From positions 1,488,001 to 1,552,000 of the forward strand of contig NZ_CP018171.1 of NCBI RefSeq assembly GCF_001889605.1: DNA of 64,000 nucleotides, written 5' to 3'. The notes below the pieces were generated by a model. It made no database searches. It was given only the letters and a program-made list of their open reading frames with translations, and was not told the DNA's origin. The DNA comes from Aquibium oceanicum (GTDB lineage Bacteria; Pseudomonadota; Alphaproteobacteria; Rhizobiales; Rhizobiaceae). Positions 7,240 through 63,113 of the stretch are shown here, piece after piece; the stretch's first letter is position 1; every line of letters begins with the position of its first letter. The translations under genes and the position numbers were made by a program.

Positions 7240-7351
7240 CTGGCGGGAGACGGCCAGACATTCTCCGACGCGCTCCTGACGCGCGGTCGAATCAACTTGA
7301 TTGAAGCCATGGTCTTGCGCACGGCCGCATGGCTCGCATCGAGGAAATACC

Positions 7352-10946: not shown

Positions 10947-10965
10947 TGCCGATGACGTTTCCGAT

Positions 10966-10988
10966 GCGGGCGGAGTCCTTCCGCCCGC
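10966..10988 (+). repeat. Intercistronic hairpin between binding protein and ATPase genes
   Basis: A perfect 9-bp stem (GCGGGCGGA / TCCGCCCGC) with a 5-base loop lies 20 bp after the binding-protein stop. There is no U-run, so it is more likely an mRNA-stabilising or partial termination element that keeps the binding protein more abundant than the membrane components. Confidence 0.55.
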
Positions 10989-11010
10989 GTCGGCTCATCC
11001 GGAACCCCGC

Positions 11011-45767: not shown

Positions 45768-46015
45768 CTGTCTTCCGCGTCCAAGCCTGATCCGGGATGT
45801 AAAACCGTTCGATGGCCACCGTTTTACCAGTTTCTTGCAATCAATAGCCAGAAATTTGCCTTCTACAAGAGGCCGCTTGGCTGTTCTGTGAATGGCATGC
45901 AGTGGCAAAGGGCTCGGCAAGAGGCCCGTACCGCCAGATTGCGCCGGCAAATCAGGCCGGACGCGGGAGGAATCGGAATTTGGCAGGCGCATCGACGGCG
46001 ATCGCCCGAAGCAGG

Positions 46016-47428
46016 ATGACGGCTGGCGGTGCGATCCTCGAGAGGATCAGCCCGGTCACCGGCGACGTCGTGACCCGCGTTCCGGCATCAAGCCCCGACG
46101 AGGCCCGCCACGTGGCGAACCGCGCCGCCGCCGCTTTTGCGCAATGGTCCAGGGTTCCCCCGTCGGAGCGGCGCGCGCTGCTCGACCGCGCGGCCGACCT
46201 GCTCCTGGCCCGCTCGCACGACTTCGTCGAGGCGATCTCGGCGGAGACGGGCGGGACCTGCGCCTGGGGCGAACTCAACTGCCGCCTGGCCGCTTCCATC
46301 CTGCGCGAGGCGGGCGCGCTGACGACGCAGGTGACGGGCGAGGTGATCCCCTCCGATCGGCCCGGCGCCCTTTCGATGGCGATGCGCAGGCCCTGCGGCG
46401 TGGTGCTGACGCTGGCGCCCTGGAACGCGCCGCTCATCCTCGGGGTGCGCGGACTGGCCATGCCGCTCGCCTGCGGCAACACGGTGGTCTTCAAGGCCTC
46501 CGAACTCTGCCCGCGCACTCACCAGATGATCGGCGAGATCTTCGCGGAAGCGGGATTTCCCGACGGGTGCGTCGGGGTCGTCCACAATGCCGAGCACCAC
46601 GCCACCGAGATCGTGGAAGCGCTCGTCGCGCATCCGGCGGTGCGACGCGTGAACTTCACCGGTTCGACGCGGGCTGGCCGCGTCATCGCGGAACTCTGTG
46701 CCCGACACCTGAAGAGGCCGCTGCTGGAACTGGGAGGAAAGGCGCCGCTCGTCGTGCTCGACGACGCCGATGTCGAGCAGGCGGTGAAGGCGGCCGCCTA
46801 CGGCGCCTTCTTCCATCAGGGCCAGATCTGCATGTCGACGGAACGGGTGCTCGTCCATGACGACATGGCCGACGATTTCACCGCCCGTCTCGCCGGACAC
46901 GCCGGCCGGCTGAAGGCGGGCGATCCACGCTATCCCGGCAATGCGATCGGGCCGATGGTCAGCGAACAGGCGGCGCAGCGCGTGAAGGCCCTGATCGACG
47001 ACGCGGTGGACAAGGGCGCGCGACTGGTCGCCGGCGGAAAGCTGCGCGGCGCCTACCTGGACGCGACGATCCTCGACGGGATGACGCCCTCGATGCGCAT
47101 CTACTACGAGGAATCCTTCGGGCCGGTGGCCTCGGTCATCCGCTATTCCGACATCGACGAGGCCGTCTCGATCGCCAACGACACGGAGTACGGCCTCGCC
47201 GCCGCGGTTTTCGGCCGCGACGTGACGCGCGCGCTGGAGGTGGCGCACCGGCTGGAGACCGGCATCTGCCACATCAATGCTGCGACCATCCAGGACGAGC
47301 CGCAGGTGCCGTTCGGCGGCGTGAAGGCGTCCGGCTACGGCCGCTTCGGCGGACGCGCGGGCATCGACGAGTTCACGGAACTGCGCTGGATTTCGATCCA
47401 GGGCGGCCGCGAGGAGTATCCGATATGA
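46016..47428 (+). CDS. Aldehyde dehydrogenase 1 (NAD(P)+-dependent)
   Basis: A 470-residue ALDH. The general base Glu238 is in LELGGKAPLV and the nucleophile Cys272 in FHQGQICMSTERV. The cofactor-binding PWNAP and FTGSTRAG segments are present, and the C-terminus has PFGGVKASGYGRFGG. The HQGQICMS form resembles vanillin, benzaldehyde and salicylaldehyde dehydrogenases. A TTG at 45980 with a GGAGG site is an alternative start. The gene is first in the plus-strand series and divergent from araC. Confidence 0.9.
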   Translation: MTAGGAILERISPVTGDVVTRVPASSPDEARHVANRAAAAFAQWSRVPPSERRALLDRAADLLLARSHDFVEAISAETGGTCAWGELNCRLAASILREAGALTTQVTGEVIPSDRPGALSMAMRRPCGVVLTLAPWNAPLILGVRGLAMPLACGNTVVFKASELCPRTHQMIGEIFAEAGFPDGCVGVVHNAEHHATEIVEALVAHPAVRRVNFTGSTRAGRVIAELCARHLKRPLLELGGKAPLVVLDDADVEQAVKAAAYGAFFHQGQICMSTERVLVHDDMADDFTARLAGHAGRLKAGDPRYPGNAIGPMVSEQAAQRVKALIDDAVDKGARLVAGGKLRGAYLDATILDGMTPSMRIYYEESFGPVASVIRYSDIDEAVSIANDTEYGLAAAVFGRDVTRALEVAHRLETGICHINAATIQDEPQVPFGGVKASGYGRFGGRAGIDEFTELRWISIQGGREEYPI

Positions 47429-47683: not shown

Positions 47684-47700
47684 TGGCATCTGATTGCGCG

Positions 47701-47729
47701 GTGACAGGCCGGCAGAAAAATTCTATTGT
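47701..47729 (+). promoter_or_regulatory. Candidate promoter of ALDH 2 and the first Liv operon
   Basis: GTGACA and TATTGT with an exact 17-bp spacer, in a locally AT-rich patch (AGAAAAATTCTATTG). The predicted start is about 100 bp before the ALDH 2 ATG. The proximal TGTATACA is immediately upstream of the -35. Confidence 0.4.
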
Positions 47730-47837
47730 CTCCGGCGGCCGCGCCATCGGGCGGGAGAGAGCGGAGCCGCTGTTCCGTCGCCCCATGCGAAAGACGGGAT
47801 TGCGTGTCCCGGCGCGGCGTGCCGAGGGAGGATTGCC

Positions 47838-49304
47838 ATGAACGTGATGCACAGACCCGTCGCGGGCCCGAAGGCGCCCGAGCGCTTCTTCATCGGCGGA
47901 CGCTGGATCGACCCGATCTCCAGGCAGACGCTCAAGGTGGTCTCCCCGACTACCGAGGAACTGCTCATGACCTATCCCGAAGCGGGGCCGGCGGACATCG
48001 ACCGCGCGGTGTCGGCGGCGCGCGACGCTTTCGACAACGGACCCTGGCCGCGCATGTCGCCGTCCGAACGTGCCGGCTACCTTCGCCGTGTGGCCGGGCT
48101 CCTGTCTGAGCGGCTGGAGGACATCGCGCAGGCCTGGACCGTCCAGGTCGGCGCGCCGATCTCGCTGACCCGGAAGCTGGTCGGGCAGAACCCGACGCTC
48201 TTCAACTACTATGCGGACCTGATCGAGACCTACCCCTTCGTCGACGACCGCACCCGCGACGACGGCGGCAAGGTCAAGGTGGTGAAGGAGCCGGTAGGCG
48301 TCTGCGCCGCGATCACGCCGTGGAACGCGCCACTGGTGCTCCTGAGCTACAAGGTTTCGGCCGCCCTTGCGGCGGGCTGCACCATGGTGGCGAAGCCGTC
48401 GCCGGAAACGCCGCTCGAGGCCTACATACTGGCCGAATGCATCGAGAAGGCGGGGCTGCCCGCGGGCGTCTTCAACATCGTGCCGGCGGGGCGCGAGGGC
48501 GGCGACTACCTCGTGCGCCACAAGGGCATCGACAAGGTCGCCTTCACCGGCTCGACGGGGGCAGGCAAGCACATCGCCGCGGTCTGCGCCGAACGGCTCG
48601 CCCGCGTCAGCCTCGAACTCGGCGGCAAGTCGGCCGCGGTGCTGCTGGACGACGCGGATTTCCAGGCGGCACTGCCGAGCCTCATGGTCTACACCATGCC
48701 GATCACCGGCCAGGTCTGCTTCTCGCTGACGAGGGTGCTGGTGCCGGAACGGCGCGAGAAGGAGTTCCTCGACCTCTACCTGGGCGCCGTCTCGAACATC
48801 AAGGTCGGCGATCCCATGGATCCGTCGACCCAGATGGGACCGCTGACCATGGCAAGACAGCGCCAGCGCGTGGAAGGCTACATCGCCGCCGGACGTGCCG
48901 AGGGCGCCCGCATCGCCTGCGGCGGCGGCCGGCCCAAGGGGCTCGACCGCGGCTACTATGTCGAGCCGACGGTCTTCACCGGCGTCACGCCCCACATGAA
49001 GATCGTCCAGGAGGAGATTTTCGGGCCGGTCGTGTCGGTCATGACCTACCGCGACGAGGACGAGGCGGTCGCCAAGGCCAACAACTCGCAGTACGGCCTG
49101 AGCGGCGCGGTCTACACCGCCGATCCGCAGCGCGGCTACGAAATGGCGCGCAAGATGCGAACCGGCAGCATCACGATCAACGGCATGATCGTCGATCCCA
49201 AGCACCCCTTCGGCGGCTTCAAGCAGTCCGGAATGGGCCGCGAGGGCGGACCGGAAGGCCTCGACAACTACGTCGAGACCAAGACCATCCACTTTGCCGG
49301 ATGA
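47838..49304 (+). CDS. Aldehyde dehydrogenase 2
   Basis: A 488-residue ALDH whose ATG follows GGGAGG. The general base is Glu260 (LELGGKSAAVLL) and the nucleophile Cys294 in ITGQVCFSLTRVLV. This Cys context differs from the HQGQICMS of its two neighbours and matches the broad betaine/long-chain-type ALDH class found next to catabolic genes. The C-terminal HPFGGFKQSGMGREGG is standard. It lies 70 bp ahead of the binding-protein gene and is probably the first gene of that operon. Confidence 0.9.
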   Translation: MNVMHRPVAGPKAPERFFIGGRWIDPISRQTLKVVSPTTEELLMTYPEAGPADIDRAVSAARDAFDNGPWPRMSPSERAGYLRRVAGLLSERLEDIAQAWTVQVGAPISLTRKLVGQNPTLFNYYADLIETYPFVDDRTRDDGGKVKVVKEPVGVCAAITPWNAPLVLLSYKVSAALAAGCTMVAKPSPETPLEAYILAECIEKAGLPAGVFNIVPAGREGGDYLVRHKGIDKVAFTGSTGAGKHIAAVCAERLARVSLELGGKSAAVLLDDADFQAALPSLMVYTMPITGQVCFSLTRVLVPERREKEFLDLYLGAVSNIKVGDPMDPSTQMGPLTMARQRQRVEGYIAAGRAEGARIACGGGRPKGLDRGYYVEPTVFTGVTPHMKIVQEEIFGPVVSVMTYRDEDEAVAKANNSQYGLSGAVYTADPQRGYEMARKMRTGSITINGMIVDPKHPFGGFKQSGMGREGGPEGLDNYVETKTIHFAG

Positions 49305-49374: not shown

Positions 49375-50574
49375 ATGCTGAGACGTTCATTCATCACCCT
49401 TGCCGCCTCGGCGGCTGTTCTGGCGGGGGCGGGCACATCCGGCTTCGCGCAGGAGGAGACGATCAAGCTCGGCGCCAGCGCGCCGAAATCCGGCCCGCTG
49501 GCCGGCGGCGCGGCCATGACGCATTGGCCGAACATCCAGCTGTGGATGAAGGAAGTGAACGATGCCGGCGGCCTCAAGGTCGGCGACAAGCAGATGAAGA
49601 TCGAACTCGTCGAATATGACGACAAGACGAGCGGCGAAGAGGCGATCAAGAACATCCAGCGGCTCGCCACCGTCGACGAGGTCGACTTCCTCGTCGCGCC
49701 CTATTCCACGGGCCTGAACATCGCCGCCGCTCCGGCGATCGCGCGCTACGGCTATCCGCAGATCGCGACGACCGCCGCCACCGATGGCGTCAAGGAATTC
49801 GCCGAACGCTGGCCGAACTCCTTCTGGATGCTCGGCACGTCGACGCAGCTTGCCAACGGCATCGTCGACACGATCTCCAAAATGAAGGAGAAGGGCGACA
49901 TCGGTAACAAGGTCGCCCTCGTCAACGTCGCCGACGCCTTCGGGCTGGAACTGATCGGAGCCGCCAAGCCGGCGCTGGAGAAGGCCGGGTTCGAGATCGT
50001 CTACGAGACGTCCTATCCGCTCGGCACACAGGATCTCGCTCCGGTTATCAGCCAGGCCAAGGCCGCCGCGCCCGACGCCTTCATCGCCTTCTCCTATCCG
50101 GGCGACACCTTCGCGCTGACCGAACAGGCGCAGGTGCAGGGCTTCGACGTTCCGGTCTTCTATACCGGCGTCGGCACCGCCTTCCCGCCCTTTGCCAAGC
50201 GCTTCGGCGACGCCGCGAACGGCATCATGGGCATCGGCGGCATCAACAGCTCGGACGAGAACGTCAAGGGCTACCTCGACATGCACAAGGCCGACCTCGG
50301 CTCAGACCCGGACTTCTGGGCCAGCGCGACGACCTATGCCGGGCTGCAGATCCTGGGGCAGGCGATCGAAAAGGCGGGTTCCCTCGACAAGGCCGCCGTC
50401 GTGGAGGCGATCAAGACCGGTACGTTCGACACGGTGATCGGCCCCGTCTCGATGCCCAACAACGTCAACGAGAAGGTCTGGACCGTCGGGCAGTGGAACA
50501 ACGGCGTCTTCGAGGCGGTCGCCGCCGAGGGAATGCCGGTCGCCGCCGAGCCGGCGAAGAAGTCCGGCTGGTAG
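49375..50574 (+). CDS. Branched-chain-type (HAAT) ABC binding protein 1
   Basis: A 399-residue periplasmic protein with a signal peptide (RRSFITLAASAAVLAGAGTS) cleaved near GFAQE, after a GGGAGG ribosome site. The type I fold of LivJ-like proteins is evident: KLGASAPKSGPLAGG, ELVEYDDKTSGEEAIKNIQR and VDFLVAPYSTGL. The pocket Ser/Thr pattern of true amino-acid binders is not obvious. Related proteins in Rhodopseudomonas and others bind aromatic acids, consistent with the ALDH and demethylase neighbours. Confidence 0.9.
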   Translation: MLRRSFITLAASAAVLAGAGTSGFAQEETIKLGASAPKSGPLAGGAAMTHWPNIQLWMKEVNDAGGLKVGDKQMKIELVEYDDKTSGEEAIKNIQRLATVDEVDFLVAPYSTGLNIAAAPAIARYGYPQIATTAATDGVKEFAERWPNSFWMLGTSTQLANGIVDTISKMKEKGDIGNKVALVNVADAFGLELIGAAKPALEKAGFEIVYETSYPLGTQDLAPVISQAKAAAPDAFIAFSYPGDTFALTEQAQVQGFDVPVFYTGVGTAFPPFAKRFGDAANGIMGIGGINSSDENVKGYLDMHKADLGSDPDFWASATTYAGLQILGQAIEKAGSLDKAAVVEAIKTGTFDTVIGPVSMPNNVNEKVWTVGQWNNGVFEAVAAEGMPVAAEPAKKSGW

Positions 50575-50832: not shown

Positions 50833-51699
50833 ATGAACATCCTCGTCACCGGCATACTCCTGAGCGGCACCTATGCGCTGATCGCGCTGGGGCTGACCAT
50901 GCAGTATGGCGTCGCCCGAATCATGAATCTCGGCAATGGCGAGACGCTGGTCGCCGCCTGCTTCGTGGCCTTCTGGCTCTACACGGGTCTCGCGATCAAT
51001 CCGCTGATCGGGCTCGTCATCATCGCGCCGGCGGCCTTCGTCATCAACTGGGGCATCTATGCGGTGGCGCTTCGGCCGCTTGTCAACCGCGCCAAGAACC
51101 GGGGGCAGCTGGAGGTGGATTCGATCCTCGCCACCTTCGGGCTCCTGTTCCTGCTTCAGGGGCTGATGATCGTCGGCTTCGGCGGCGAGTACCATTCCTA
51201 CACGTTCCTTGCCGAACGCTTCGAGATCTTCGGCAATTCCTACGGCCTGAACCGCGTCGTCGCCTTCGCCGCGGCGGTGCTGATCTTTGTCGCGCTGTGG
51301 CTCTTCCTCTACCGCACGCGGCAGGGGACCGCGCTGCGCGCCGTCGCCGTCGATCCGGACGCGGCAAACCTCGTCGCCATCGACGTGGCGCGGACCGCCG
51401 CCTTCGCCTTCGCGCTCGGTGGCGCGCTGACGGCCTGCGGAGGCGCGCTGCTTTCCACTTTCTACACCTTCAACGCCTCGATGGGCGTGGTCTTCACCAT
51501 GAAGGCGCTGATCATCGTCATCATGGGCGGGGTCGGCGACGTGCGCGGCGCGGTGCTCGCCGCCCTGATACTCGGCGTCTCCGAGACGCTGGTGGCGAGC
51601 CTGATCGATCCCGGCCTGACGCTGGCCGCGACCTATACGCTGTTCATCCTGGTGCTTCTCTTCCGCCCGCAAGGCATCTTCGGGAGGGCGCCGACGTGA
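50833..51699 (+). CDS. livH: Branched-chain-type ABC permease LivH 1
   Basis: A 288-residue inner-membrane permease with about eight hydrophobic helices. LTMQYGVARIMNLGNGETLV matches the N-terminal LivH motif; RPLVNRAKNRGQLEVDSILA and RTRQGTALRAVAVDPDAANL are the cytoplasmic ATPase-contact regions. It forms half of the channel with LivM. The stop overlaps the livM start (GTGA). Confidence 0.92.
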   Translation: MNILVTGILLSGTYALIALGLTMQYGVARIMNLGNGETLVAACFVAFWLYTGLAINPLIGLVIIAPAAFVINWGIYAVALRPLVNRAKNRGQLEVDSILATFGLLFLLQGLMIVGFGGEYHSYTFLAERFEIFGNSYGLNRVVAFAAAVLIFVALWLFLYRTRQGTALRAVAVDPDAANLVAIDVARTAAFAFALGGALTACGGALLSTFYTFNASMGVVFTMKALIIVIMGGVGDVRGAVLAALILGVSETLVASLIDPGLTLAATYTLFILVLLFRPQGIFGRAPT

Positions 51700-52658
51700 A
51701 CGGCATCACCCGCGATGAAATCCGCGGACTGGCGATCGGCGCGGTGCTGGTGGCGCTCGCCGCCGCGTTGCCGCTGTTAGACAAGGGGTTCTACCTGTCG
51801 ATCTCCGTCAACATCATGCTCTACGCCGCTCTCTGCACCGCCTGGGCGCTGTTTTCGGGACCGACGCACTACGTCTCGCTGGCGACGGCCGCCTTCTACG
51901 GGCTGGGCACCTATTCGGTCGGCCTTGGCATCGACATCCTGCCCTTCCCGCTGCTGCTCGCCATCGCGGCGGCGGCCGGCGCGGTTCTGGCGGGGCTGGT
52001 CGGCGCGGCGACGCTGCGGATCTCCGGCGTCTACTTCGTCATCTTCACCTTCGGCCTTGCGGAACTCGTGCGGCAGGTGGTGACGTGGACGCAGACCAAG
52101 CTCGCGACCGCCATGGGTCTCTACGTCTTCACCGACTTCACCGAGAGCCACATCTACTGGATGCTGCTGGCGCTGGCCGCCGCCGTCTTCCTGACCGGCT
52201 GGGCGATCAACCGCTCGCGGCTGGGCTTTGCCATGCAGATCATCGGCAATGACGAGACGGTGGCGCGCCACGTCGGCATCGACACGGCGCGTTCCAAGAT
52301 CCTGCTCTTCATGATCTCGGGCGCCTTCATCGCGGTGGCAGGCGCGATCATGGCGCCGCGCTATTCCTACATAGAGCCGCCGGCGGCCTTCAATCCGATG
52401 ATCTCGTTCCTCGTCGTCATCATGGCGCTCCTCGGCGGGACCAAGCGGCTGTGGGGACCGCTGGTCGGCGTCATCCCCTTTACCATCGTCATGGACATCA
52501 TCTCCTCGCAGTTTCCCAACCACACCTCGATCGTGATGGGGCTGGCCTTCCTGACGATCGTCTACTTCATCCCCAACGGAGTGACCGGCCTGATCGAACA
52601 GGGCCGCGAACGTTGGCGAAGGAGGGTCGTCGTGGTGGGCGAGGAGAAGACGGCGTGA
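51696..52658 (+). CDS. livM: Branched-chain-type ABC permease LivM 1
   Basis: A 320-residue permease starting at GTG within the livH stop, with GGGAGGG upstream. About nine helices are visible; GPTHYVSLATAAFYGLGTYS and RLGFAMQIIGNDETVARHVG are the diagnostic LivM segments. The C-terminus (GRERWRRRVVVVGEE) is basic and longer than usual by a few residues. Its stop overlaps the next GTG start. Confidence 0.92.
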   Translation: MNGITRDEIRGLAIGAVLVALAAALPLLDKGFYLSISVNIMLYAALCTAWALFSGPTHYVSLATAAFYGLGTYSVGLGIDILPFPLLLAIAAAAGAVLAGLVGAATLRISGVYFVIFTFGLAELVRQVVTWTQTKLATAMGLYVFTDFTESHIYWMLLALAAAVFLTGWAINRSRLGFAMQIIGNDETVARHVGIDTARSKILLFMISGAFIAVAGAIMAPRYSYIEPPAAFNPMISFLVVIMALLGGTKRLWGPLVGVIPFTIVMDIISSQFPNHTSIVMGLAFLTIVYFIPNGVTGLIEQGRERWRRRVVVVGEEKTA

Positions 52659-53383
52659 CCGCCGCGCTGACCGTCAACTCGGCGCGGAAAGCGTTCGGCG
52701 GCCTGATTGCCGTCAACGACGTGTCATTCGAGGTTCGCCGCGGCGAACTGCTGGGGCTGATCGGGCCGAACGGGTCGGGCAAGACCACCATGCTCAACCT
52801 GATCTCCGGCGCGCTGAAGCCGACTTCGGGCGAGATCATGCTGGAGGGCAGGCGCATCTCGGGACTGCCGGCACATGCGATCGCGCGGCAGGGCGTGGCG
52901 CGGACCTTCCAGCTCGTGCGGGTGCTGCCCTCGCTCGACGCGGAGCAAAACGTCATGGCGGGCGCGGTCTTCGGCCACGTACGCAGCTGGGGCGCGGATG
53001 CGAGGAAGACGTCGCGGGCGCTGCTTGACCGCGTCGGGCTCGGCGCGCGCGCCCACATGCCGGTGTCGGCGATGACCTATATCGACCAGAAGCGGGTGGA
53101 ACTGGCGCGCGCGCTGGCCGCCAACCCGCGCATCCTGCTGCTCGACGAGTGGCTTGCGGGGCTGAACCCGAGCGAACTGAAGATCGGCATTTCGCTCGTC
53201 GACGAGTTGCGCCGCGAAGGCCGCACCATCATCATGGTCGAGCACGTGATGGACGCGATCCGCTCGCTCTGCGACCGCTGCGTGGTGATGAGTTCGGGCC
53301 GCACGATCGCGCAAGGGGGCGTGGAGGAGACGCTGTCGGACCCGGAGGTGGTACGCGCCTATCTCGGAGACGAGGATGCTTGA
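52655..53383 (+). CDS. livG: Branched-chain-type ABC ATPase LivG 1
   Basis: A 242-residue ATPase starting at GTG inside the livM stop. Walker A is GPNGSGKTT, the LivG-type ARTFQLVR follows, and Walker B is ILLLDEWLAGL. The signature is reduced to MTYIDQKRVELARAL, lacking the usual LSGGQ, as in many LivG proteins that read LPYGxQRRLE. The stop overlaps the livF start by 8 bases. Confidence 0.92.
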   Translation: MTAALTVNSARKAFGGLIAVNDVSFEVRRGELLGLIGPNGSGKTTMLNLISGALKPTSGEIMLEGRRISGLPAHAIARQGVARTFQLVRVLPSLDAEQNVMAGAVFGHVRSWGADARKTSRALLDRVGLGARAHMPVSAMTYIDQKRVELARALAANPRILLLDEWLAGLNPSELKIGISLVDELRREGRTIIMVEHVMDAIRSLCDRCVVMSSGRTIAQGGVEETLSDPEVVRAYLGDEDA

Positions 53384-55202
53384 GGTCCGCAATCTGGCCG
53401 TCAGCTATGGGCGCCACCGCGCGCTCGAGGGCGTCAGCGTACGCGTCGACAAGGGCGAGATCTGCGTCATCCTCGGCGCCAACGGGGCGGGCAAGTCGAC
53501 GCTTCTCAAGACCATCGCCGGCATGGTGAAGCCGGACGCCGGCGCCGACATCGTCATTAACGGCAAGGCCATCGCCGGCATGAAGCCGCACAGGATCGTG
53601 GAGGAGGGCATAGCGCTGGTGCCCGAGGGGCGGGGCATCTTCGGCGAGCTTTCCGTCGCCGAGAATTTGCAGCTGGGCGCCTTCGCCACGCGAGCGCGGA
53701 AATCGGAACGCGAGACGCTCGACCTGATCTACCGGCTGTTCCCGAAGCTCGCCGAACGCAAGCGCCAGATGGCGCGCACCATGTCGGGCGGCGAGCAGCA
53801 GATGGTGGCGATCGGCCGTGCTCTGATGTCGAAGCCGGACATCCTGATGCTCGACGAGCCGTCGCTCGGTCTGTCTCCGATCCTGACCAAGGAGCTGTTC
53901 AAGTCGCTGAGGCAGGTGGCGGCGACCGGCGTCGGCATTCTCCTGGTGGAGCAGAACGCCAAGCAGAGCCTCGCCATCGCCGACCGGGGCTATCTGGTCG
54001 AGAACGGGCTGGTGACCGGAGAGGGCAAGGCGTCCGACCTCGCCAGCGATCCGGCCGTCGTCAACGCCTATCTCGGCGGCACCGGGAAGGAGGGCAAGCG
54101 AACCGCTCCGGCGCGCGGGATATCGATCCGCCTGCCGGCCTCCATTCCGCTGCCGATCGATCTTTCCGCCATGCGCGACGCGCTGTCCGGTCTGGCGATG
54201 CGGGCGAGCCGCATCCAGTCGGCGTTCGTGCGTTCCCTGCGGCGCGCGGGCGCTATTCCGAGCGCGTTCGTCGGCCGCTACGACCCGAAGGCGGGGACCG
54301 ATCCTTGGGAGGAGGCCGCATCCATGCCAAACGAGCTGATCGTGTCGCGTAAAGCCGGGCGGCGGCCCGTCCGCGTCGACGTGAACCCGGCGGACCTCGC
54401 CGACCGCGCAAGCGCGCGGCTCGCCAGGCACATCAGGACCACGCGGCTTTCCTCGCCCGCGCCGTCGGCCTTCGCGAATGCGCTGACGACCGCCCCTGCG
54501 GCCGAGGCGGAGAACCATGTCCGCCAGACCGCCAACCACGACCAGACCGCGGGGAGGGTGGTTTCCCGGCCCGAAGACCGGCCGCGCGCGGAAGGATCGC
54601 AAGATCCCGCCGCACTGGCACGCCGCGCTTCCGATAGGCTGGCGGAGCATGTCGCGGCCCGGCGCAAATCGATTCCTGTCCCGTCCGCTTTCGCCGGAAA
54701 AACCGGTGCAGAAGCAGAGCCTCGGGACGAGCAGGAGGTTTCGTCCCGTGCGGGTGAGCAGAAGTCACCCAGCGATCCCGGCGGCGAGCGGGGAAACCGC
54801 TCAGGCAGCACCAACCCGCTCGAACTGGCGCAGCGCGCGACCGCGCGGCTCGCCGAGCAGGTGCGCGCTCGGCGTGCGTCCAGGCCGGTGCCGTCGGCGT
54901 TCGCGAGCCTCGCGGCTGTTCGGCCGCCGGAGGCGGATCGCGACCAACCGCGCAGCGGCCGCGGGCTCATCGGCCACAACAGTGCCGGCTTCGACGTCGA
55001 GGCAGACGCGCCGGCGGCGCCCGCAAATCCGAAAGGCGCGCCTGCCATCGCCGATCTCGTCGCCCGGGCGGCGGCCATTCATACCGCGCATGTGGCGGCG
55101 AAACGGCGCAAGCTGACCGCATTCGTCATTCCGGCGCGGCCGGACAATGAAACCGAAGATTCCGCTCCGGGGCGTCCGGCGGAAAGAACGCAAGGAGACT
55201 GA
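53376..55202 (+). CDS. livF: LivF 1 ATPase with a novel repeat-bearing C-terminal extension
   Basis: A 608-residue protein; normal LivF is about 235. Residues 1-235 are an intact ATPase: Walker A GANGAGKST (34-42), signature MSGGEQQ, Walker B ILMLDEP (156-162), switch His position replaced by Gln in LLVEQNAKQ. From about 240 to 608 is an Ala/Arg/Pro-rich extension with repeated units: N/D-P-x3-LAxRAxxRLAxH, then RxSxPxPSAFA. Clear copies are at 337-367, 410-440 and 480-510; degenerate ones at 262-299 and 557-585. Linkers between are polar and likely disordered. The frame is continuous and ends 2 bp before ALDH 3, whose ribosome site lies within it. Confidence 0.9.
   Translation: MLEVRNLAVSYGRHRALEGVSVRVDKGEICVILGANGAGKSTLLKTIAGMVKPDAGADIVINGKAIAGMKPHRIVEEGIALVPEGRGIFGELSVAENLQLGAFATRARKSERETLDLIYRLFPKLAERKRQMARTMSGGEQQMVAIGRALMSKPDILMLDEPSLGLSPILTKELFKSLRQVAATGVGILLVEQNAKQSLAIADRGYLVENGLVTGEGKASDLASDPAVVNAYLGGTGKEGKRTAPARGISIRLPASIPLPIDLSAMRDALSGLAMRASRIQSAFVRSLRRAGAIPSAFVGRYDPKAGTDPWEEAASMPNELIVSRKAGRRPVRVDVNPADLADRASARLARHIRTTRLSSPAPSAFANALTTAPAAEAENHVRQTANHDQTAGRVVSRPEDRPRAEGSQDPAALARRASDRLAEHVAARRKSIPVPSAFAGKTGAEAEPRDEQEVSSRAGEQKSPSDPGGERGNRSGSTNPLELAQRATARLAEQVRARRASRPVPSAFASLAAVRPPEADRDQPRSGRGLIGHNSAGFDVEADAPAAPANPKGAPAIADLVARAAAIHTAHVAAKRRKLTAFVIPARPDNETEDSAPGRPAERTQGD
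54384..55130 (+). repeat. Coding repeat array in the LivF 1 extension
   Basis: Three clear protein repeats of about 31 residues, spaced by linkers of about 42 and 39 residues, and one degenerate C-terminal copy. Each has an amphipathic helix (LAxRAxxRLAxHxxxxR) followed by S-x-P-x-PSAFA. A further degenerate copy lies just before, near 54160-54275. Conservation is at protein level; the DNA copies have diverged, so the array is not recent. Confidence 0.8.
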
Positions 55203-55204
55203 CA

Positions 55205-56665
55205 ATGGCTCGCGTATTCGAAGGCATGTACATCGGCGGCGGCTGGTCCGCGACGCAGAAGACCTTCAAGGACCTGAACCCCGCCGACGGATCGGTGTGG
55301 GCCGAGGTGCCCGATTCCGGCCGCGCCGAGACGGCCGCCGCGATCGACGCGGCGCACGCCGCCTTTCCCGAATGGTCGCAGCTGCCGTTTTCCAAGCGCG
55401 CCCACATCCTGATGAAGGCCGCCGAGATCTGGGAGCGGCGCAAGATGGAGATCGTCGAGGCGATCCAGGCCGAGGGTGGCGGATGGTTCGGCAAGGGCAT
55501 GTTCGAGACCGGCTACGTGACCGAGATCTTCCATGCCGCGGCCGGCTCGGTGTGGCAGCCGACCGGCGAGGTCCTGCCGTCGGAATACGGCAAGGTGTCG
55601 ATGGCCGTGCGCCGGCCGATGGGCGTTGTCTCTGTCATCAGCCCGTGGAACTTCCCCTGCATTCTCACCGCGCGCGGCTTTCTCTTCCCGCTGGTGGCGG
55701 GCAACACGATCGTTCTGAAACCGTCGGAGGAGACGCCCTATCTCGGCGGACTGCTGTTCGCTGAAATCTTCGAGGAGGCGGGGCTGCCCAAGGGCGTGCT
55801 CAACGTGGTCACCTGTTCGCGCGACAACGTGGCCGAGGTCGGTGACGAGCTGATCGAGCACCCCTACGTGAAGGGCATTTCCTTCACCGGCTCGACCGCC
55901 GTCGGCCGCCAGGTCGCGGCGAAGGCGGGCGCCCACCTGAAGAAGTGCTGCGTGGAGCTCGGTGGCAAGGATTCTCTCATCGTGTGCGACGACGCCGACA
56001 TGGAACGCGCCACGCAGGCGGCCAATTTTGGCTCCTTCATGCACCAGGGCCAGATCTGCATGTCGGTCGAGAAGGTGCTGGTGCACGAGAAGATCTTCGA
56101 CGAGTTCCTCAAGAAGTTCGTCGAGCGAGCCGGCAAGCTCAAGGTCGGCGATCCGACAAAGAGCAAGGAGCACATCATAGGCCCGCTCATCAACGACAAG
56201 CAGCTCGGCAAGGTGAAGGAACAGCTCGAGGATGCCATTGCCAAGGGCGCCAAGGTGGTGCTCGGCGGCAAGATAGACGGTCGCTACGTCGAGCCGACGA
56301 TCCTGACGGGCGTCACGCCCGACATGAAGCTCTACCAGGACGAGACCTTCGGCCCCGTGGTGCCGGTGATCCCCTTCCGCACGGATGACGAGGCGGTGCA
56401 GATCGCCAACGACACCGAATACGGCCTGTCGGCCGGCGTCATGACCCGCGACGAGGTGCGGGGGCTGGCGATCGTCAACAAGCTCGACACCGGCAACTGC
56501 CACATCAACTGCTCGTCGGTGAACGACGAGCCGCATGTGCCCTTCGGCGGCTTCAAGGCTTCGGGCTCGGGCAAGCATGGCGGGCGCTGGTCGCTGGAGA
56601 CCTTCACGGAAACCCGCTGGATCACGCTCGACCGCGGCGGCAGGCCGTATCCGCCGATGTTCTGA
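55205..56665 (+). CDS. Aldehyde dehydrogenase 3, vanillin/benzaldehyde dehydrogenase-like
   Basis: A 486-residue ALDH with AGGAG seven bases before the ATG. General base Glu251 is in VELGGKDSLIV and nucleophile Cys285 in MHQGQICMSVEKV. SPWNFPCILTARGF and PFGGFKASGSGKHGG are as in aromatic aldehyde dehydrogenases such as vanillin dehydrogenase. It follows livF by 2 bp, so it is the last gene of the transporter operon. Oxidation of vanillin-like aldehydes to acids would feed the LigM-like demethylase on the other strand. Confidence 0.92.
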   Translation: MARVFEGMYIGGGWSATQKTFKDLNPADGSVWAEVPDSGRAETAAAIDAAHAAFPEWSQLPFSKRAHILMKAAEIWERRKMEIVEAIQAEGGGWFGKGMFETGYVTEIFHAAAGSVWQPTGEVLPSEYGKVSMAVRRPMGVVSVISPWNFPCILTARGFLFPLVAGNTIVLKPSEETPYLGGLLFAEIFEEAGLPKGVLNVVTCSRDNVAEVGDELIEHPYVKGISFTGSTAVGRQVAAKAGAHLKKCCVELGGKDSLIVCDDADMERATQAANFGSFMHQGQICMSVEKVLVHEKIFDEFLKKFVERAGKLKVGDPTKSKEHIIGPLINDKQLGKVKEQLEDAIAKGAKVVLGGKIDGRYVEPTILTGVTPDMKLYQDETFGPVVPVIPFRTDDEAVQIANDTEYGLSAGVMTRDEVRGLAIVNKLDTGNCHINCSSVNDEPHVPFGGFKASGSGKHGGRWSLETFTETRWITLDRGGRPYPPMF

Positions 56666-57298: not shown

Positions 57299-58714
57299 TC
57301 AGGCCGGCTTCTTCGTGCGCCAGCTGTCGGCGTAGTTCTCGCGCGCCTCGCGGGCATAGGGCGTCGGCGAAACGCGCACACGGATCTCCGCCTGCTTGTG
57401 GCGTTCGGTGGAGCTCTTGCCGCTGCCGCCGTCGGGCTCGCCCCAGACCAGCGTCAGTACGTCGCCTTCCTTGACGTCCGGATCGACGATGCCGAGCGAC
57501 AGCATGCAGCGCTCGTTGAAGGAGTAGCCGTTGAACATCGAGAGCCCCGCCAGCCGGTCGCCGATCATCACCCGGTCGAAGCCCGAGGAGGCATAGTTCG
57601 GCTGCGGCAGGTCGAGCCACTTGTAGTTTTCCTCGCCCGGCCGGAAGGCTGAGTGGATGACCTTCATGACGTCCTCGTCGTTCCACTCGAAAGTGACCTT
57701 CTTGCGCGACGGCTTGTCCTTCATGGCCGCGAGGGCGTCCTTGCCGATGAAGTCGTCCTTCTTCCAGCCGATGTAGAAGCCGTAGCCGAGTTCGAAGGGG
57801 GTGGTGTAGTAGTCCTCTATGTCGTCGGAGACGAAGCTGCCGCCGATCGAGCCGTTGGCCTCGTAGGAATCGGCCCCCAGCCATTCGCGGTATTCCTCCA
57901 TCATGCCGCCGCCGGTGTAGATGGCGGGCAGGGGGGAGGGGATCCAGCCGGATTCGAGCGTGTTGGTGGAATAGGCGCGCGAGCCGACGCGGCGCAAGTC
58001 GACGCCGGCGTCCTGCGCGGCTTGCAGGATCACCGACTGGACGTAGGCCTTGTCCTCGTAGGGGCCCCAGACCTCCAGCCCCGGCGCGCCGGCCATGCCG
58101 TGGCGCAGGGCGCGTACCTTCTTCGAGCCGGCGTTGATCCAGTCGACGTGGAAGAACTTGATCTCCTGGACAGGGCCGCCGTTCATGGCGTCGAGCACCT
58201 TGTTGGCGTCGGGTCCCTGGATCTGGAAGCGGTAGTGCGTCCGGTAGATCGCCTTGCCGTCGGGGCGTGAATCGGAGCGTGGGTCGCGGTGCAGGCGCAC
58301 GTTCCACTTACCGACCGCCTGCTGGAACTGCACCCAGTTCGCTGTTGGCGCCCGACCGACCAGCACGAACTTGTCGTCGCGCTCGCGGAAGATGATCATG
58401 TCGCCGATCACGTGCCCGGACGGCGTGACCGGCACGAAGTGCTTTGCGCGGTTCAGGTCGAAGTTCGAGAAGCTGTTGACGCCGACTTGGGAGAGAAATT
58501 CCGCCGCCTGCGGCCCCTCCACGATCAGTTCGTCCATGTGGTGGGTCTGGTCGAACAGCACGGCGGTCTCGCGCCAGGCGCGCTGCTCGTCGCGCCAGTT
58601 GGTGAACTCGTTCGCCACCACCGGGTATACATACATGCCGATCTTCGAATTGCGCAACATCTCGACGACGTTGCCTTTTTCGCGCATCAGCGCCTGCAGG
58701 CTGTGGTTTGCCAC
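57299..58714 (-). CDS. LigM/DesA-like tetrahydrofolate-dependent aromatic O-demethylase (GcvT family)
   Basis: A 471-residue protein starting at GTG, 7 bases after a strong GGAGG; this start gives the same length as I recall for Sphingobium LigM. Segments agree closely with LigM as remembered: VVEMLRNSKIG, VLFDQTHHM (His58, His59), VPVTPSGHVIGD, RFQIQGP, LRHGMAGAPGLEVWGPYE, GSRAYSTNTLESGWIPSPLP (Tyr248) and GGSFVS. LigM moves the methyl group of vanillate or 3-O-methylgallate to tetrahydrofolate. The substrate here may be another methoxy acid. A TGTATACA operator lies 30 bp upstream. Confidence 0.85.
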   Translation of the reverse strand: MANHSLQALMREKGNVVEMLRNSKIGMYVYPVVANEFTNWRDEQRAWRETAVLFDQTHHMDELIVEGPQAAEFLSQVGVNSFSNFDLNRAKHFVPVTPSGHVIGDMIIFRERDDKFVLVGRAPTANWVQFQQAVGKWNVRLHRDPRSDSRPDGKAIYRTHYRFQIQGPDANKVLDAMNGGPVQEIKFFHVDWINAGSKKVRALRHGMAGAPGLEVWGPYEDKAYVQSVILQAAQDAGVDLRRVGSRAYSTNTLESGWIPSPLPAIYTGGGMMEEYREWLGADSYEANGSIGGSFVSDDIEDYYTTPFELGYGFYIGWKKDDFIGKDALAAMKDKPSRKKVTFEWNDEDVMKVIHSAFRPGEENYKWLDLPQPNYASSGFDRVMIGDRLAGLSMFNGYSFNERCMLSLGIVDPDVKEGDVLTLVWGEPDGGSGKSSTERHKQAEIRVRVSPTPYAREARENYADSWRTKKPA

Positions 58715-58743
58715 TGGTGATCCTCCCTGATCGACTGCCGTCA

Positions 58744-58751
58744 TGTATACA
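58744..58751. promoter_or_regulatory. TGTATACA operator upstream of the LigM-like gene
   Basis: Within the perfect 10-bp palindrome ATGTATACAT, 30 bp before the GTG start. Placement near the transcription start fits repression. It lies in the 131-bp gap downstream of the GntR gene on the same strand. Confidence 0.65.
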
Positions 58752-58845: not shown

Positions 58846-59610
58846 TCAGCTGACGACGAGGGCGAGACCGGGCACGTGGCTGATCAGGCCGCGGTCCTTC
58901 ACCAGCACGTATTCGAGGTTGTGGCGTGCCGTGCGGGCGTGTTCGCGCGCGAGCGCCTCGGCGCGCGCGCCCTCGCGGGCGGCGATGGCGGAGATGATGG
59001 CGCGGTGCTGCTCCTGGGCGGAATTGAGCGAGCGGCGGAAGGCGTGGATATCGGCCTTGTTGGGCAGGAAGGCGGACGGCGAGGCGAAGGGTAAGCGCGA
59101 GGCGCGCTCCACCTCGCGGCAGATCATGTCGCTGCCCGAGAGTGCCGCGAGCTGATGGTGGAACTCCGCGTTGAGTTCGGAATAGGCGTCGAAATCCACG
59201 TCGCCGGGTGTTTCGCCGAAACAGCGGTCGAGCCTGGCGACGACGTCGCGGATGCGGGCCAGTGCGGCAGGCTCCACGCCCCGTTCGGCGGCGAGCCGGG
59301 CAGCGGTGCCTTCCAGCACGCCGCGCAGCTCGATGGCATCGACGACGTCGGCATAACCAAAGGAGCGGACGACGAAGCCGCCGCCGCGAACGCGCTCCAG
59401 AAGGCCCTCCTCGGCCAGCCGCGACATGGCCTCGCGCACCGGCGTGCGCGAGATCTTCAGTTCCTCGGCCATGGGGACTTCGAACAGGCGCGTGCCGCCC
59501 GGCAGTTCGCCGCTGAGAATCTTCTTACGCAGTTCGATGAGCGCCCGCGTGGCGTGGGTCCTGGCGGAGGTCTGATCCATGGGGGCCGTCATCCTCAAAT
59601 AGGTCCGCAT
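58846..59610 (-). CDS. GntR family regulator, FadR/FCD subfamily
   Basis: A 254-residue regulator; ATGs at 59592 and 59580 are alternative starts because no start has a well-placed ribosome site. The winged helix has LFEVPMAEELKISRTPVREA and LAEEGLLERVRGGGFVVRSF. The C-terminal FCD domain is all-helical with metal/ligand-binding His in NAEFHHQLAALSG and the later HARTARHNLEYV. FCD regulators of aromatic-acid genes release DNA when bound to the acid or its CoA ester. The TGTATACA sites nearby are its probable operators. Confidence 0.92.
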   Translation of the reverse strand: MRTYLRMTAPMDQTSARTHATRALIELRKKILSGELPGGTRLFEVPMAEELKISRTPVREAMSRLAEEGLLERVRGGGFVVRSFGYADVVDAIELRGVLEGTAARLAAERGVEPAALARIRDVVARLDRCFGETPGDVDFDAYSELNAEFHHQLAALSGSDMICREVERASRLPFASPSAFLPNKADIHAFRRSLNSAQEQHRAIISAIAAREGARAEALAREHARTARHNLEYVLVKDRGLISHVPGLALVVS

Positions 59611-59680: not shown

Positions 59681-60397
59681 TCACCCGGGTTCCAGGTTCA
59701 TTCCGATGTAGCGATCGAGCGTCTTTTCGTCCTTCAGCAGATCGGCGGACCGCCCACGGTGCGCGACCACGCCGCGCTCGATGACGATGGCGTCCTCGGT
59801 CAGCCCGAGCGCGACGGTGGCGTGCTGCTCGACCAGCACCAGGGCGATGCCCTCGTCCTTGGCCATGCGGGTGATGGCGGCGGTGAGTTCCTCGATGATG
59901 ATGGGCGCCAGGCCTTCGAGCGGTTCGTCGAGCAGCAGCACGGACGGATTTGTCATCAAGGTGCGGGCGATTGTCAGCATCTGCTGCTCGCCGCCGGAGA
60001 GCTGGTTGCCCATGTTGGTCCGCCGCTCGCGCAGCCGCGGGAAGAGCGAATAGACGGCGTCGAGATCCCATCGCCCCTTGCGGGCGGCGACGGTGAGATT
60101 TTCCTCGACCGTCAGCGAGGGAAAGATGTCGCGCTCTTGCGGCACCCAACCGATCCCTCTGCGGGCGCGCTGGTGCGGATGCATCGCTGAAACATCCTCG
60201 CCCGCGAAGAAGACGGCGCCCGCGCGCAGCGGCACGAACCCCATGATCGTGAGAAGCAGCGTCGTCTTGCCGACGCCGTTTCGCCCGAGCACCGCAAGGC
60301 TCCCCGCCTTCGGGACCGACGCGGAGACGCCGTCGAGCACGATGCCCTCGCCGTAGCCCGAGCGCACGTCGCGCAGTTCCAGGATCGCATCAGGCAT
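59681..60397 (-). CDS. livF: Branched-chain-type ABC ATPase LivF 2
   Basis: A 238-residue ATPase of normal LivF length, with no extension, in contrast to LivF 1. Walker A is GRNGVGKTT, GIGWVPQERDIFPSLTVEEN is the LivF Q-loop region, the signature is LSGGEQQML, and Walker B VLLLDEPLEGLAP. It is the last gene of the second Liv operon and starts 8 bases within the livG 2 end. Confidence 0.93.
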   Translation of the reverse strand: MPDAILELRDVRSGYGEGIVLDGVSASVPKAGSLAVLGRNGVGKTTLLLTIMGFVPLRAGAVFFAGEDVSAMHPHQRARRGIGWVPQERDIFPSLTVEENLTVAARKGRWDLDAVYSLFPRLRERRTNMGNQLSGGEQQMLTIARTLMTNPSVLLLDEPLEGLAPIIIEELTAAITRMAKDEGIALVLVEQHATVALGLTEDAIVIERGVVAHRGRSADLLKDEKTLDRYIGMNLEPG

Positions 60398-61154
60398 GGT
60401 GGCCGTGTCCCAGATAGACTTCGCGAACGCGGCTGTCGGTGCGGATCACGTCGGGCTCCGCCTCCAGCAGCACCTCTCCCGCCACCAGGACGACGATGCG
60501 GGTTGCGAAGTTGAAGACGATGTCCATGTCGTGCTCGATGAACAGCACCGAAATGTCGTCCGGCAGGGCCGCGATCACCTGGAAGAGTTCGCCGCTCTCG
60601 GCCTTCGGGACGCCTGCGGCGGGCTCATCGAGCAGGAGCACCTTCGGCCGGGTGGCGAGCGCCAGGCCGATCTCGAGCAGCCGCTGCTGGCCGTAGGCCA
60701 GCGTACGCGTGGTGCGCGTCGCGACATCCCCGAGGCGCAGCTGCACCAGGATTTCGTAGGCCTCCTCGACGGCGGAGGCGTGAGAGGCGAGGCCGCGCCA
60801 GAACTGGCCGGACGTGCCCTCCCGCTCGGTGATGGCGAGCATCGTGGCTTCCAGCGGGGTGAGGTCGGGAAACAGCGTGTTGATCTGGAACGTGCGTGTC
60901 AGGCCGCGCCGCACGCGCGCGGCGGTCGCCAGACCGGTTACGTCCTTGCCGTCGAGCAGGATGCGTCCCGTATCGGGTCTCAACTGGCCGGTGATGAGGT
61001 TGATGAGCGTGGTCTTGCCCGCACCGTTCGGGCCGATCAATGCGTGCCGCGCGCCGCGCGGGAGCTTGATCGATACATCTTTCGACACGACGAGCGAACC
61101 GAAGCGCTTGCCGATGCCTTCGGTCTGGAGCGCAATCTGGCCGGGCTCGCTCAT
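60390..61154 (-). CDS. livG: Branched-chain-type ABC ATPase LivG 2
   Basis: A 254-residue ATPase. Walker A is GPNGAGKTT, TRTFQINTLFPDLT is the LivG Q-loop, LAYGQQRLLEIGLAL the relaxed signature, and VLLLDEPAAGVPKAES Walker B. The switch region is FIEHDMDIVF. The start overlaps the livM 2 stop (ATGA). Confidence 0.93.
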   Translation of the reverse strand: MSEPGQIALQTEGIGKRFGSLVVSKDVSIKLPRGARHALIGPNGAGKTTLINLITGQLRPDTGRILLDGKDVTGLATAARVRRGLTRTFQINTLFPDLTPLEATMLAITEREGTSGQFWRGLASHASAVEEAYEILVQLRLGDVATRTTRTLAYGQQRLLEIGLALATRPKVLLLDEPAAGVPKAESGELFQVIAALPDDISVLFIEHDMDIVFNFATRIVVLVAGEVLLEAEPDVIRTDSRVREVYLGHGHHA

Positions 61155-62140
61155 CCGTTCCTCCGGACGAGGCGGGACAGGCCGCCGAGGATGCCCTTGG
61201 GCAGGAACAGCACGACGATCATCAGGAGCAGGCCGATCCAGAAATACCAGTACTGCGGATTGAGCCCCGCCGCCTGGTCCCGCACCAGAAGAAAGATGAT
61301 GGAGCCCAGGATGGCGCCGTAGAGCCGGCCAGTGCCACCGAGGATCAGCATGACCACGACGTCCGCGGAGCGCTGGAAGCTCAGCACCTCCAGTGCCACC
61401 GTGTTGGTGGACTGGGTAAGCAGGGCGCCTGCGACACCGGCCATGGCTGCGGAGATGGTGTACACCTTCTGCAGGTGCCAGCGATGCTCGGAGCCGATCG
61501 CCGGCATGCGGCGCACGTTCTCCCGTATGCCGCGCAATGCCAGCCCGAACGACGAATTGACGATGCGTCGACTGATCAGGAAGCCGAGGAGCAGCACGAC
61601 CAGGGAATAGGAATATGCGGTGTATCCCCAGAGATCGAAGCGGAAATGATTGAAGATCGGCCAGGTGTTCACGCCGCTGAGGCCGTCGGTTCCACCCGTC
61701 AGCCAGGTCATCGCGTTGGCGAGCTCGTAGGTCAGGAAGCCGAGGCCGAGCGTCACCATCAGTAGCGCCATGTGCTGGACGCGCACGATGAGGTAGCTCG
61801 CCACGAAGCCGACCAGCCCTGCGAAGGCACCGGCGATGAACAGTCCCGAGATCGGTTCGCCCCAGCCCAGACGGGCGCTCAGCAGCCCCGCCACGTAGGC
61901 GCCCAGCCCGAAGAACATGGCGTGCCCCAGCGTGACGATGCCGGCATAGCCAAGGATCAGATCCACCGAGATCGCGAAGAGGGCGGTGATCGCAACCTGG
62001 CTTGCGAGCGTCAGGTAGGTCGGAAAGAAGAAGAAAGGCAGAAGCATTGAGAGCCAGAACACGATCTCGAAGACCGACAGGCGGCTCCGCCGCCTGAGCC
62101 ATGCGACCGGGTCGCTCGATGCAGGGGCCACAGCGCTCAT
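61151..62140 (-). CDS. livM: Branched-chain-type ABC permease LivM 2
   Basis: A 329-residue permease with about nine helices. GYAGIVTLGHAMFFGLGAYV is the LivM N-terminal motif and SSFGLALRGIRENVRRMPAI the ATPase-contact loop. The N-terminus has a short Arg-rich stretch (WLRRRSRLSV) before the first helix. It overlaps livG 2 and follows livH 2 directly. Confidence 0.93.
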   Translation of the reverse strand: MSAVAPASSDPVAWLRRRSRLSVFEIVFWLSMLLPFFFFPTYLTLASQVAITALFAISVDLILGYAGIVTLGHAMFFGLGAYVAGLLSARLGWGEPISGLFIAGAFAGLVGFVASYLIVRVQHMALLMVTLGLGFLTYELANAMTWLTGGTDGLSGVNTWPIFNHFRFDLWGYTAYSYSLVVLLLGFLISRRIVNSSFGLALRGIRENVRRMPAIGSEHRWHLQKVYTISAAMAGVAGALLTQSTNTVALEVLSFQRSADVVVMLILGGTGRLYGAILGSIIFLLVRDQAAGLNPQYWYFWIGLLLMIVVLFLPKGILGGLSRLVRRNG

Positions 62141-62147
62141 CGGGTTC

Positions 62148-63011
62148 TCACCGCTTGCCGAACAGGCCCATCGGCCGCACCAGGAGGATCGCCACCAGCA
62201 GCAGATAGATCAGGAAGGATCCGATTTCCGGCACGAAGTACTTGCCCGCGACGTCGCCGATGCCGAGCAGCGCCGCTCCGACGAAGGAACCGGTGACCGA
62301 CCCGAGCCCGCCGACGGCCACGACGATGAGGACATAGACCAGGAAGTGGAACCCGAAGGACGGGTCGAGCCCGACGATCTCGATGGCCAGTGCGCCGCCG
62401 AGCCCGGCAAGGCCGCTTCCCAGCGCGAAGGTGATCGCGAAGATGCGCTCGACGTTGAGCCCGAGCCCCTGCGCCACCCGCTGGTTGTCGACCGCGGCCC
62501 TGATCTGCGCACCGAAGCGGGTCCGCTCGAGCGTGAAATAGAGAAGCCCCGTAATCGCCAGGGCGACCACGATCAGGAACATGCGATAGATGCCGAAGCG
62601 CAGGCCGAAGAGTTCCACGGACCCGCGCAGCCAGTCGGGCAGGACGATCGGCTGTTGCCCGGTACCGAAGACGAAGGTGGCGCCTGCTGCCGCGACGAAC
62701 ACCAGACCGATGGTGAAGAGCACCTGGTTGAGTTCGCCGGCCCCGTAGAGCCGCCGAAAGAGCGTCCGCTCGAAAAGGATGCTGACCGCCGCCGCGGCCA
62801 GGAACGCCAGGGGCAAGGTCAGCAGGAAGGGAAGGCCGAACTGGCGCATCAGCCACACCGCCGTGTAGCCGCCCAGCATGGCGAAAGCGCCGTGCGCCAG
62901 GTTGATGAAGTTCATCAGCCCGAGCGTGACGGACAGGCCGACCGACAGGACGAACAGCAGCATCCCGAAGGCTAGGCCGTCGAAGAGCACGATTGCGACG
63001 CTGCTGATCAC
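62148..63011 (-). CDS. livH: Branched-chain-type ABC permease LivH 2
   Basis: A 287-residue permease with about eight helices. LSVTLGLMNFINLAHGAFAM is the classic LivH motif, here closer to the consensus than in LivH 1. RTRFGAQIRAAVDNQRVAQG is the cytoplasmic coupling loop. It lies about 100 bp downstream of the binding-protein gene, a gap with no notable repeat. Confidence 0.93.
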   Translation of the reverse strand: MISSVAIVLFDGLAFGMLLFVLSVGLSVTLGLMNFINLAHGAFAMLGGYTAVWLMRQFGLPFLLTLPLAFLAAAAVSILFERTLFRRLYGAGELNQVLFTIGLVFVAAAGATFVFGTGQQPIVLPDWLRGSVELFGLRFGIYRMFLIVVALAITGLLYFTLERTRFGAQIRAAVDNQRVAQGLGLNVERIFAITFALGSGLAGLGGALAIEIVGLDPSFGFHFLVYVLIVVAVGGLGSVTGSFVGAALLGIGDVAGKYFVPEIGSFLIYLLLVAILLVRPMGLFGKR

Positions 63012-63113
63012 TGGGTAGGCCGCCGTATGGGTTCAGGCCGCGGAACCGCCCCTCGCCACGACCGTCTCCGCGGAGGCGGGCTGAAGAGGGGCGTTCGCAT
63101 CAGGCAGGGCGCT

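Follow-up and report, generated by a model that had tools for sequence, protein, structure and literature searches.

Why does the LivF-like ATPase of a branched-chain amino acid type importer continue, in the same reading frame, for 373 residues beyond its ATPase domain, and what might this extension bind? We addressed this question in the window (the whole stretch of 64,000 nucleotides that was analysed) and in related genomes. LivK, H, M and G lie beside LivF, both in the window and in relatives, as in a LivKHMGF importer operon, and the complete gene row consists of two aldehyde dehydrogenases (ALDHs), LivK, LivH, LivM, LivG, the tailed LivF and a third ALDH:

45902..47428, plus strand: first ALDH, of the type found after, or fused to, some tail-less LivF elsewhere
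47694..49304, plus strand: second ALDH of the operon
49375..50574, plus strand: LivK periplasmic binding protein (Pfam; start placed by eye)
50833..51699, plus strand: LivH permease (gene order and mutual matches)
51696..52658, plus strand: LivM permease (gene order and mutual matches; start placed by eye)
52655..53383, plus strand: LivG-like ATPase (NCBIfam)
53376..54080, plus strand: LivF-like ABC ATPase domain, residues 1-235 (Pfam and NCBIfam matches)
54081..55199, plus strand: C-terminal tail, residues 236-608, type A, predicted to be largely disordered
55205..56665, plus strand: aromatic-type ALDH, the proposed partner (Pfam Aldedh, 546.4 bits against a cut-off of 23)

The stretch 53376-55202 (+) is a single intact open reading frame of 608 aa with an ATG start and no internal stop. 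A preliminary description of this DNA had recorded a LivF of about 235 aa running on in frame for about 370 residues and an ALDH 2 bp downstream; indeed, the frame stays open for 373 residues past residue 235, and the ALDH starts 2 nt after the LivF stop. Residues 1-235 match ABC_tran (E 8.7e-30; 104.6 bits against a Pfam gathering score of 25), i.e., they form an ABC transporter ATPase, with what we take to be the Walker A (GANGAGKS), signature (MSGGEQQ) and Walker B (LDEPS) motifs. The match to the LivF equivalog (NCBIfam NF008626) reaches the end of the model, but at 242.4 bits it stays below the curated cut-off of 441, thus we speak of a LivF-like protein and not of a characterised LivF. 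The genome's seven best-scoring LivF paralogues are 233-254 aa long. The paralogue at 59681-60397 had been said to lack the extension, and its length of 238 aa agrees with this; 59681-63941 (-) appears to hold a second importer set of the Liv type, whose LivF is tail-less. Antisense to livF runs an open frame of 472 aa (53232-54650, minus strand), which we take to be a mirror of the codon bias and not a gene.

The tail is built from five helix-bearing units and two short blocks, joined by linkers:

54189..54272, plus strand: unit A, residues 272-299, helix followed by IPSAFV
54273..54308, plus strand: GRYDPKAGTDPW block, residues 300-311, of the form GRYDPKxGxDPW (dN/dS 0.060 in relatives)
54393..54476, plus strand: unit B1, residues 340-367, helix followed by APSAFA
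54612..54695, plus strand: unit B2, residues 413-440
54822..54905, plus strand: unit B3, residues 483-510
54960..54989, plus strand: RGLIGHNSAG block, residues 529-538 (dN/dS 0.017 in relatives)
55053..55136, plus strand: unit D, residues 560-587, DLVARAA helix followed by TAFVIPA
55167..55199, plus strand: last 11 residues of the tail

Each of the five units follows the pattern [DE]LAxRAxxIQxAHVxxxR, with PSAF, or a variant of this string, after it. The three clear and two degenerate repeats seen previously correspond to B1, B2 and B3 and to A and D, respectively. Between the copies B1-B3, 61-71% of residues and 56-68% of bases are identical, with a pooled pS of 0.58 and pN of 0.28, so that the earlier argument, according to which the protein is conserved among divergent DNA copies, holds. 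The best internal ungapped match of 28 residues in the tail scores 88 (BLOSUM62), a value reached by none of 1000 tail shuffles, whose maximum was 52. Two blocks had been overlooked in the preliminary description, namely GRYDPKxGxDPW, which follows unit A, and GLIGHNSAG, which precedes unit D. They are kept in most of 20 aligned proteins, the exceptions being L145, without both blocks, and L129 and L130, which read GHNSG.

Searches of Pfam (up to E 10) and NCBIfam (up to E 1) gave no family for residues 241-608, and the tail gave no PDB chain up to E 1 in a sequence search and no match among 72,556 plasmid records. When a 29-column profile of the unit was run against seven genomes (at most 150 candidates scored per genome), all scored matches under E 0.02 lay in the LivF tail protein. 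The GHNS pattern occurred at one site in each of four genomes, in three of the four inside the tail. The G214 site (G214:C1:4289024-4289042, minus strand; L221) could encode a LIGHNSG-like string outside the LivF tail; the tail of G214 itself has Leu before GHNS, which the search pattern did not admit.

We then estimated selection by the Nei-Gojobori method. Over 14 pairs, of which the most distant are near saturation, dN/dS was 0.15-0.57 for the whole tail, as against 0.02-0.23 in LivF and 0.02-0.09 in the ALDH. When six close pairs were pooled, it was 0.017 for GHNS, 0.060 for GRYDPK..DPW and 0.064 for LivF, followed by 0.128 for the helix, 0.149 for PSAF, 0.293 for the last 11 residues and 0.312 for the linkers. 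Purifying selection on the repeats, as had been proposed, is thus borne out (0.02-0.15 for the motifs), with the linkers less constrained (0.31).

The preliminary description knew of no ABC ATPase family with such a tail. The tail is not peculiar to this one protein but is shared across a broader family (20 + 19 family genomes), in which it belongs to one type of importer. Of 394 family genomes, 20 gave a match to the type A tail, spread over 9 of 109 genera; at the order level, three further genomes among 397 matched, one of them weakly, and all three have a 55205-type ALDH next to the tail. The ALDH query found 39 of the same 394 family genomes, 20 at 89-100% identity and, after a gap, the others at 62-74%. 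The 20 genomes with the close ALDH are exactly the 20 with a type A tail (in three of them, G101, G235 and G337, a contig end cuts LivF or the tail). In the remaining 19, the ALDH is preceded by LivKHMGF with a LivF of 357-633 aa, tailed in all 19 cases, the tails being more divergent: ten are of type A', with the same helix unit, and nine of type B. In a comparison of profiles, A matched A' (92.9%, E 3.8e-7), A and B aligned over only 17 columns (the IADLVARAA part at the start of unit D; probability 14.9%), and A' and B gave no alignment (probability 0.2%). A class-wide search of 385 genomes added three ALDH orthologues, each with a tailed LivF upstream.

We also looked from the side of LivF, in the best 80 LivF loci of a longer contig scan, which is an uneven sample. 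Twelve of the 80 frames were of 300 aa or more, namely 11 tailed ones and the fusion L062 (discussed below), and 68 were short. All 11 tailed, unfused LivF precede a 55205-type ALDH (in L040 this ALDH is cut by the contig end). None of the 66 tail-less LivF with room downstream does so: 12 are followed by a 45902-type ALDH and 54, under the test used, by neither type. This count leaves out two short loci in which at most 800 bases lay downstream, L084 and L052, the contig of the latter breaking off within a tail. A stop after about residue 240 in orthologous operons had been named as evidence against the extension. No such stop was found beside a 55205-type ALDH. In 12 of the 80 loci, however, LivF does end at 235-248, with the other ALDH type downstream; thus, some ALDH-linked importers do without a tail. 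The absence of stops within the extension itself was confirmed, as none occurred inside the tail matches from the search of family genomes.

How many independent events stand behind this coupling? In the LivF tree, the tailed rows fall into two main groups, of 30 rows (support 85) and 21 rows (support 98), plus L145; two members of the 21-row group do not count among the tailed rows: L052, which is truncated by a contig end, and L050. The latter, a tail-less LivF from a SAR324 bin (6713-7456), sits among tailed LivF on a long branch, and its 13.4 kb gave no ALDH match; it likely represents one loss of the tail. Two phylogenetically independent contrasts were obtained, both in the expected direction (sign test p 0.5), in an analysis that gave each row the same label for the ALDH as for the tail and therefore tells only the number of independent events. 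With only two contrasts, the coupling of tail and ALDH may reflect co-inheritance of the operon. Among the operon proteins compared with their counterparts in the window, the 55205-type ALDH is the most conserved: its median is 92.7% in 18 loci, against 78.3% for LivF and 72.0%, in 10 loci, for the first ALDH (matches of the tail were too short to be counted). It is perhaps more conserved than catalysis alone would need.

Among 103 genomes from the Hyphomicrobium CS1BSMeth3 family, seven carry LivF and an ALDH fused in frame, with the frame open over its full length (loci L062, 6713-9019, and L195-L201). These seven include the genome of L062 itself, and the other six are 64-91% identical to the L062 fusion. 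The linker measures about 50-75 residues, as judged by eye and from total length, and the ALDH part is of the 45902 type, not of the 55205 type. In L062 a stretch resembling a ribosome-binding site, seen by eye, precedes the ALDH Met, so that the ALDH may also be initiated separately within this fusion.

Taken together, these observations lead us to a tentative reading, to which we give a little less than an even chance: the tail would be a disordered, multivalent linker which recruits the downstream ALDH to the importer, so that the substrate is oxidised at the membrane. In this scheme, LivF, as part of an ALDH-linked importer, would bear an intrinsically disordered tail whose Arg-rich helix/PSAF units, together with the two blocks GRYDPK..DPW and GHNS, would dock the ALDH encoded directly downstream, and the substrate, or an aldehyde made from it, would be channelled to the enzyme and oxidised on arrival. 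Its first part, a disordered and multivalent linker, is well supported by prediction, as several copies of a conserved short motif lie in sequence predicted to be disordered (low pLDDT in a relative). For its second part, gene content points to the 55205 ALDH as the probable partner. The preliminary description had likewise suggested a tether to this enzyme, and that idea gains from the tail going with the downstream ALDH and from the existence of fusions. On the other hand, the ALDH in the fusions is of the other type, which also follows the 12 unfused tail-less LivF, so that not every such pair requires a tether. In addition, the A and B tails align over the 17 columns only, and the A' and B tails do not align.

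As for the substrate, the best solved relatives of the ALDH at 55205-56665 include salicylaldehyde (6qhn) and vanillin (9ihb) dehydrogenases and NahF (4jz6), and a 4-hydroxybenzaldehyde dehydrogenase is found among them too. Beside the operon lie a LigM-type vanillate/3-O-methylgallate O-demethylase (57299-58744, minus strand) and a GntR/FCD regulator (58846-59610, minus strand); among the other loci probed, LigM had a match in L046 only. The aromatic ALDH relatives and the nearby LigM make an aromatic substrate plausible.

AlphaFold models were made for the relative L127, not for the window protein. In the model of LivF, tail and ALDH, read through one stop, three helices form at the units (block pLDDT about 45-75) and the linkers are mostly below 50; this first model misfolded the ALDH, and the 50 Foldseek matches listed for it were all ALDHs. 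In a single-chain model of tail and ALDH, likewise read through one stop, most of the ALDH folded (blocks mainly 73-97, with some weak stretches and the last ~45 residues below 50), and the tail stayed unplaced, with block pLDDT of 22-58, a shallow tail alignment and output without contacts. Because no contacts were reported, the tail alignment was shallow and the end of the ALDH was poor, we regard this as weak counter-evidence to the tether; binding is not supported by the model.

The best surviving alternative, although we hold it to be unlikely, is that the tail clusters the importer or places it in the membrane, its cationic amphipathic units and poly-Lys end binding anionic lipid or a flotillin-like scaffold, while the ALDH is a mere passenger of the operon. 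The window's five units have a net positive charge, and two of them, A and B1, are amphipathic, with a moment of 0.41 that 4.3% and 2.6% of shuffles, respectively, equal or exceed. For B2, B3 and D, by contrast, 20-61% of shuffles do so, and their amphipathicity is not clear. Likewise, seven or more K/R occur in the last 25 residues of 15/20 type-A and 9/10 type-A' tails, but the window tail has only three there (55125-55199), as against seven or more in 15 of the 19 other complete type-A tails. In the 30 type-A and A' tails, Arg:Lys is 274:18 in helix units, counted only where the search pattern is neutral between the two residues, and 468:216 in linkers, and the unconstrained last helix position is Arg in 84 of 85 units. 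We infer from this retention of Arg over Lys that a protein partner is favoured over a generic cationic anchor.

In favour of a scaffold of this kind, a flotillin-type gene follows the ALDH in 18/18 type-B operons with enough DNA, as judged by similarity to the L046 flotillin (10343-11977), which has matching places in 17 other type-B loci. Pfam confirmed flotillin in all four type-B proteins given, and in 10 of the 18 operons a short-chain dehydrogenase stands between the ALDH and the flotillin-type gene. No flotillin match was found in the retrieved DNA of type-A, A' and tail-less loci (L039-L079, L124-L194; the contig of L040 ends in the ALDH, and L203-L205 were left out) or in the 64 kb window. 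With a flotillin model, whole genomes matched in 9/9 type-B family genomes (in the operon, by position), 5/10 of type A' and 7/20 of type A; the genome of the window has one flotillin, about 1.1 Mb from the tailed-LivF operon. As 13 of 20 type-A genomes gave no match, flotillin as a general partner of the tail was rejected for type A.

Quite unlikely, in our view, is a regulatory tail acting on the ATPase by autoinhibition or by sensing a cytosolic ligand or partner. Direct fusion to the nucleotide-binding subunit and short blocks under LivF-like constraint would suit such a role. However, no folded regulatory C-terminal domain (TOBE, CBS, ACT or similar) was recognised in the tail by Pfam up to E 10, pattern searches give anything between 1 and 5 units per tail across types A and A', linkers drift, and the tie to one ALDH type would be left unexplained. 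Binding to another cytosolic partner, e.g., an upstream ALDH or a later pathway enzyme, we consider less probable still. One or two ALDHs stand upstream in type-A and A' operons where the retrieved DNA reaches, and it is the 45902 type that occurs in the fusions; yet several type-B operons (e.g., L042, L045, L047, L079, L188-L192) have neither upstream ALDH in the retrieved DNA, while the 55205 type is shared by every tailed operon with enough DNA. Finally, although linkers and tail length drift fast across relatives, a neutral read-through extension, frameshift or annotation artefact is hardly credible, being contradicted by the intact ORF, the stop-free relatives, the selection on whole tail and motifs, and an internal repeat that beats 1000/1000 shuffles.

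Returning to the tail as a linker for the ALDH, a broader and more doubtful picture, which we think somewhat unlikely as a whole, would be an importer family with three ways of keeping an ALDH at the pore: the Arg-helix/PSAF tail (type A), a shorter tail with flotillin (type B) and the LivF-ALDH fusion. The tail of the window would then gather ALDH oligomers and importers into membrane-bound import-and-oxidise clusters, a metabolon on a disordered repeat scaffold. If true, an ABC importer would be tied to a pathway enzyme by a disordered repeat tail, with the covalent fusions of relatives as a natural comparison; hand-over of substrate from importer to enzyme would become testable, and the tail might serve as a transferable tag that brings enzymes to a transporter. 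The reactivity of aldehydes would be a good reason for such a hand-over.

Neither C-terminal additions to ABC ATPases nor multivalent enzyme linkers are new in themselves. Titles and abstract openings in the literature searched, whose coverage leaves out most subscription journals, held nothing relevant to a LivF tail, its ALDH partner or the fusion; within that literature, the union of an ABC ATPase tail with a multivalent linker tied to one enzyme appears to be new. The nearest system is LivF of the branched-chain amino acid type ABC importers, which we take to be the HAAT family: residues 1-235 match to the end of the model and the LivKHMGF order is the same, whereas the window protein scores 242 bits against 441 and has a tail of 373 residues. 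The aromatic ALDHs 6qhn, 9ihb and 4jz6 (NahF) are among the best solved relatives of the 55205 enzyme, and we know of no report of them bound to a transporter. The Hyphomicrobium-family fusions have a related importer and an ALDH held to LivF, but the bond is covalent, the ALDH is of another type and a short linker replaces the repeat tail. Regulatory C-terminal domains are known from other ABC ATPases, such as TOBE of MalK/ModC, C2 of MetN and CBS of OpuA; here, too, the extra part sits on the nucleotide-binding subunit, but theirs is a folded domain and that of the window consists of repeated units in predicted disorder, with no Pfam domain. EPYC1 and CsoS2 are multivalent disordered enzyme linkers, likened here for their repeated short helical motifs between drifting linkers; the window tail differs in sitting on a subunit of an ABC importer, and its enzyme binding is putative.
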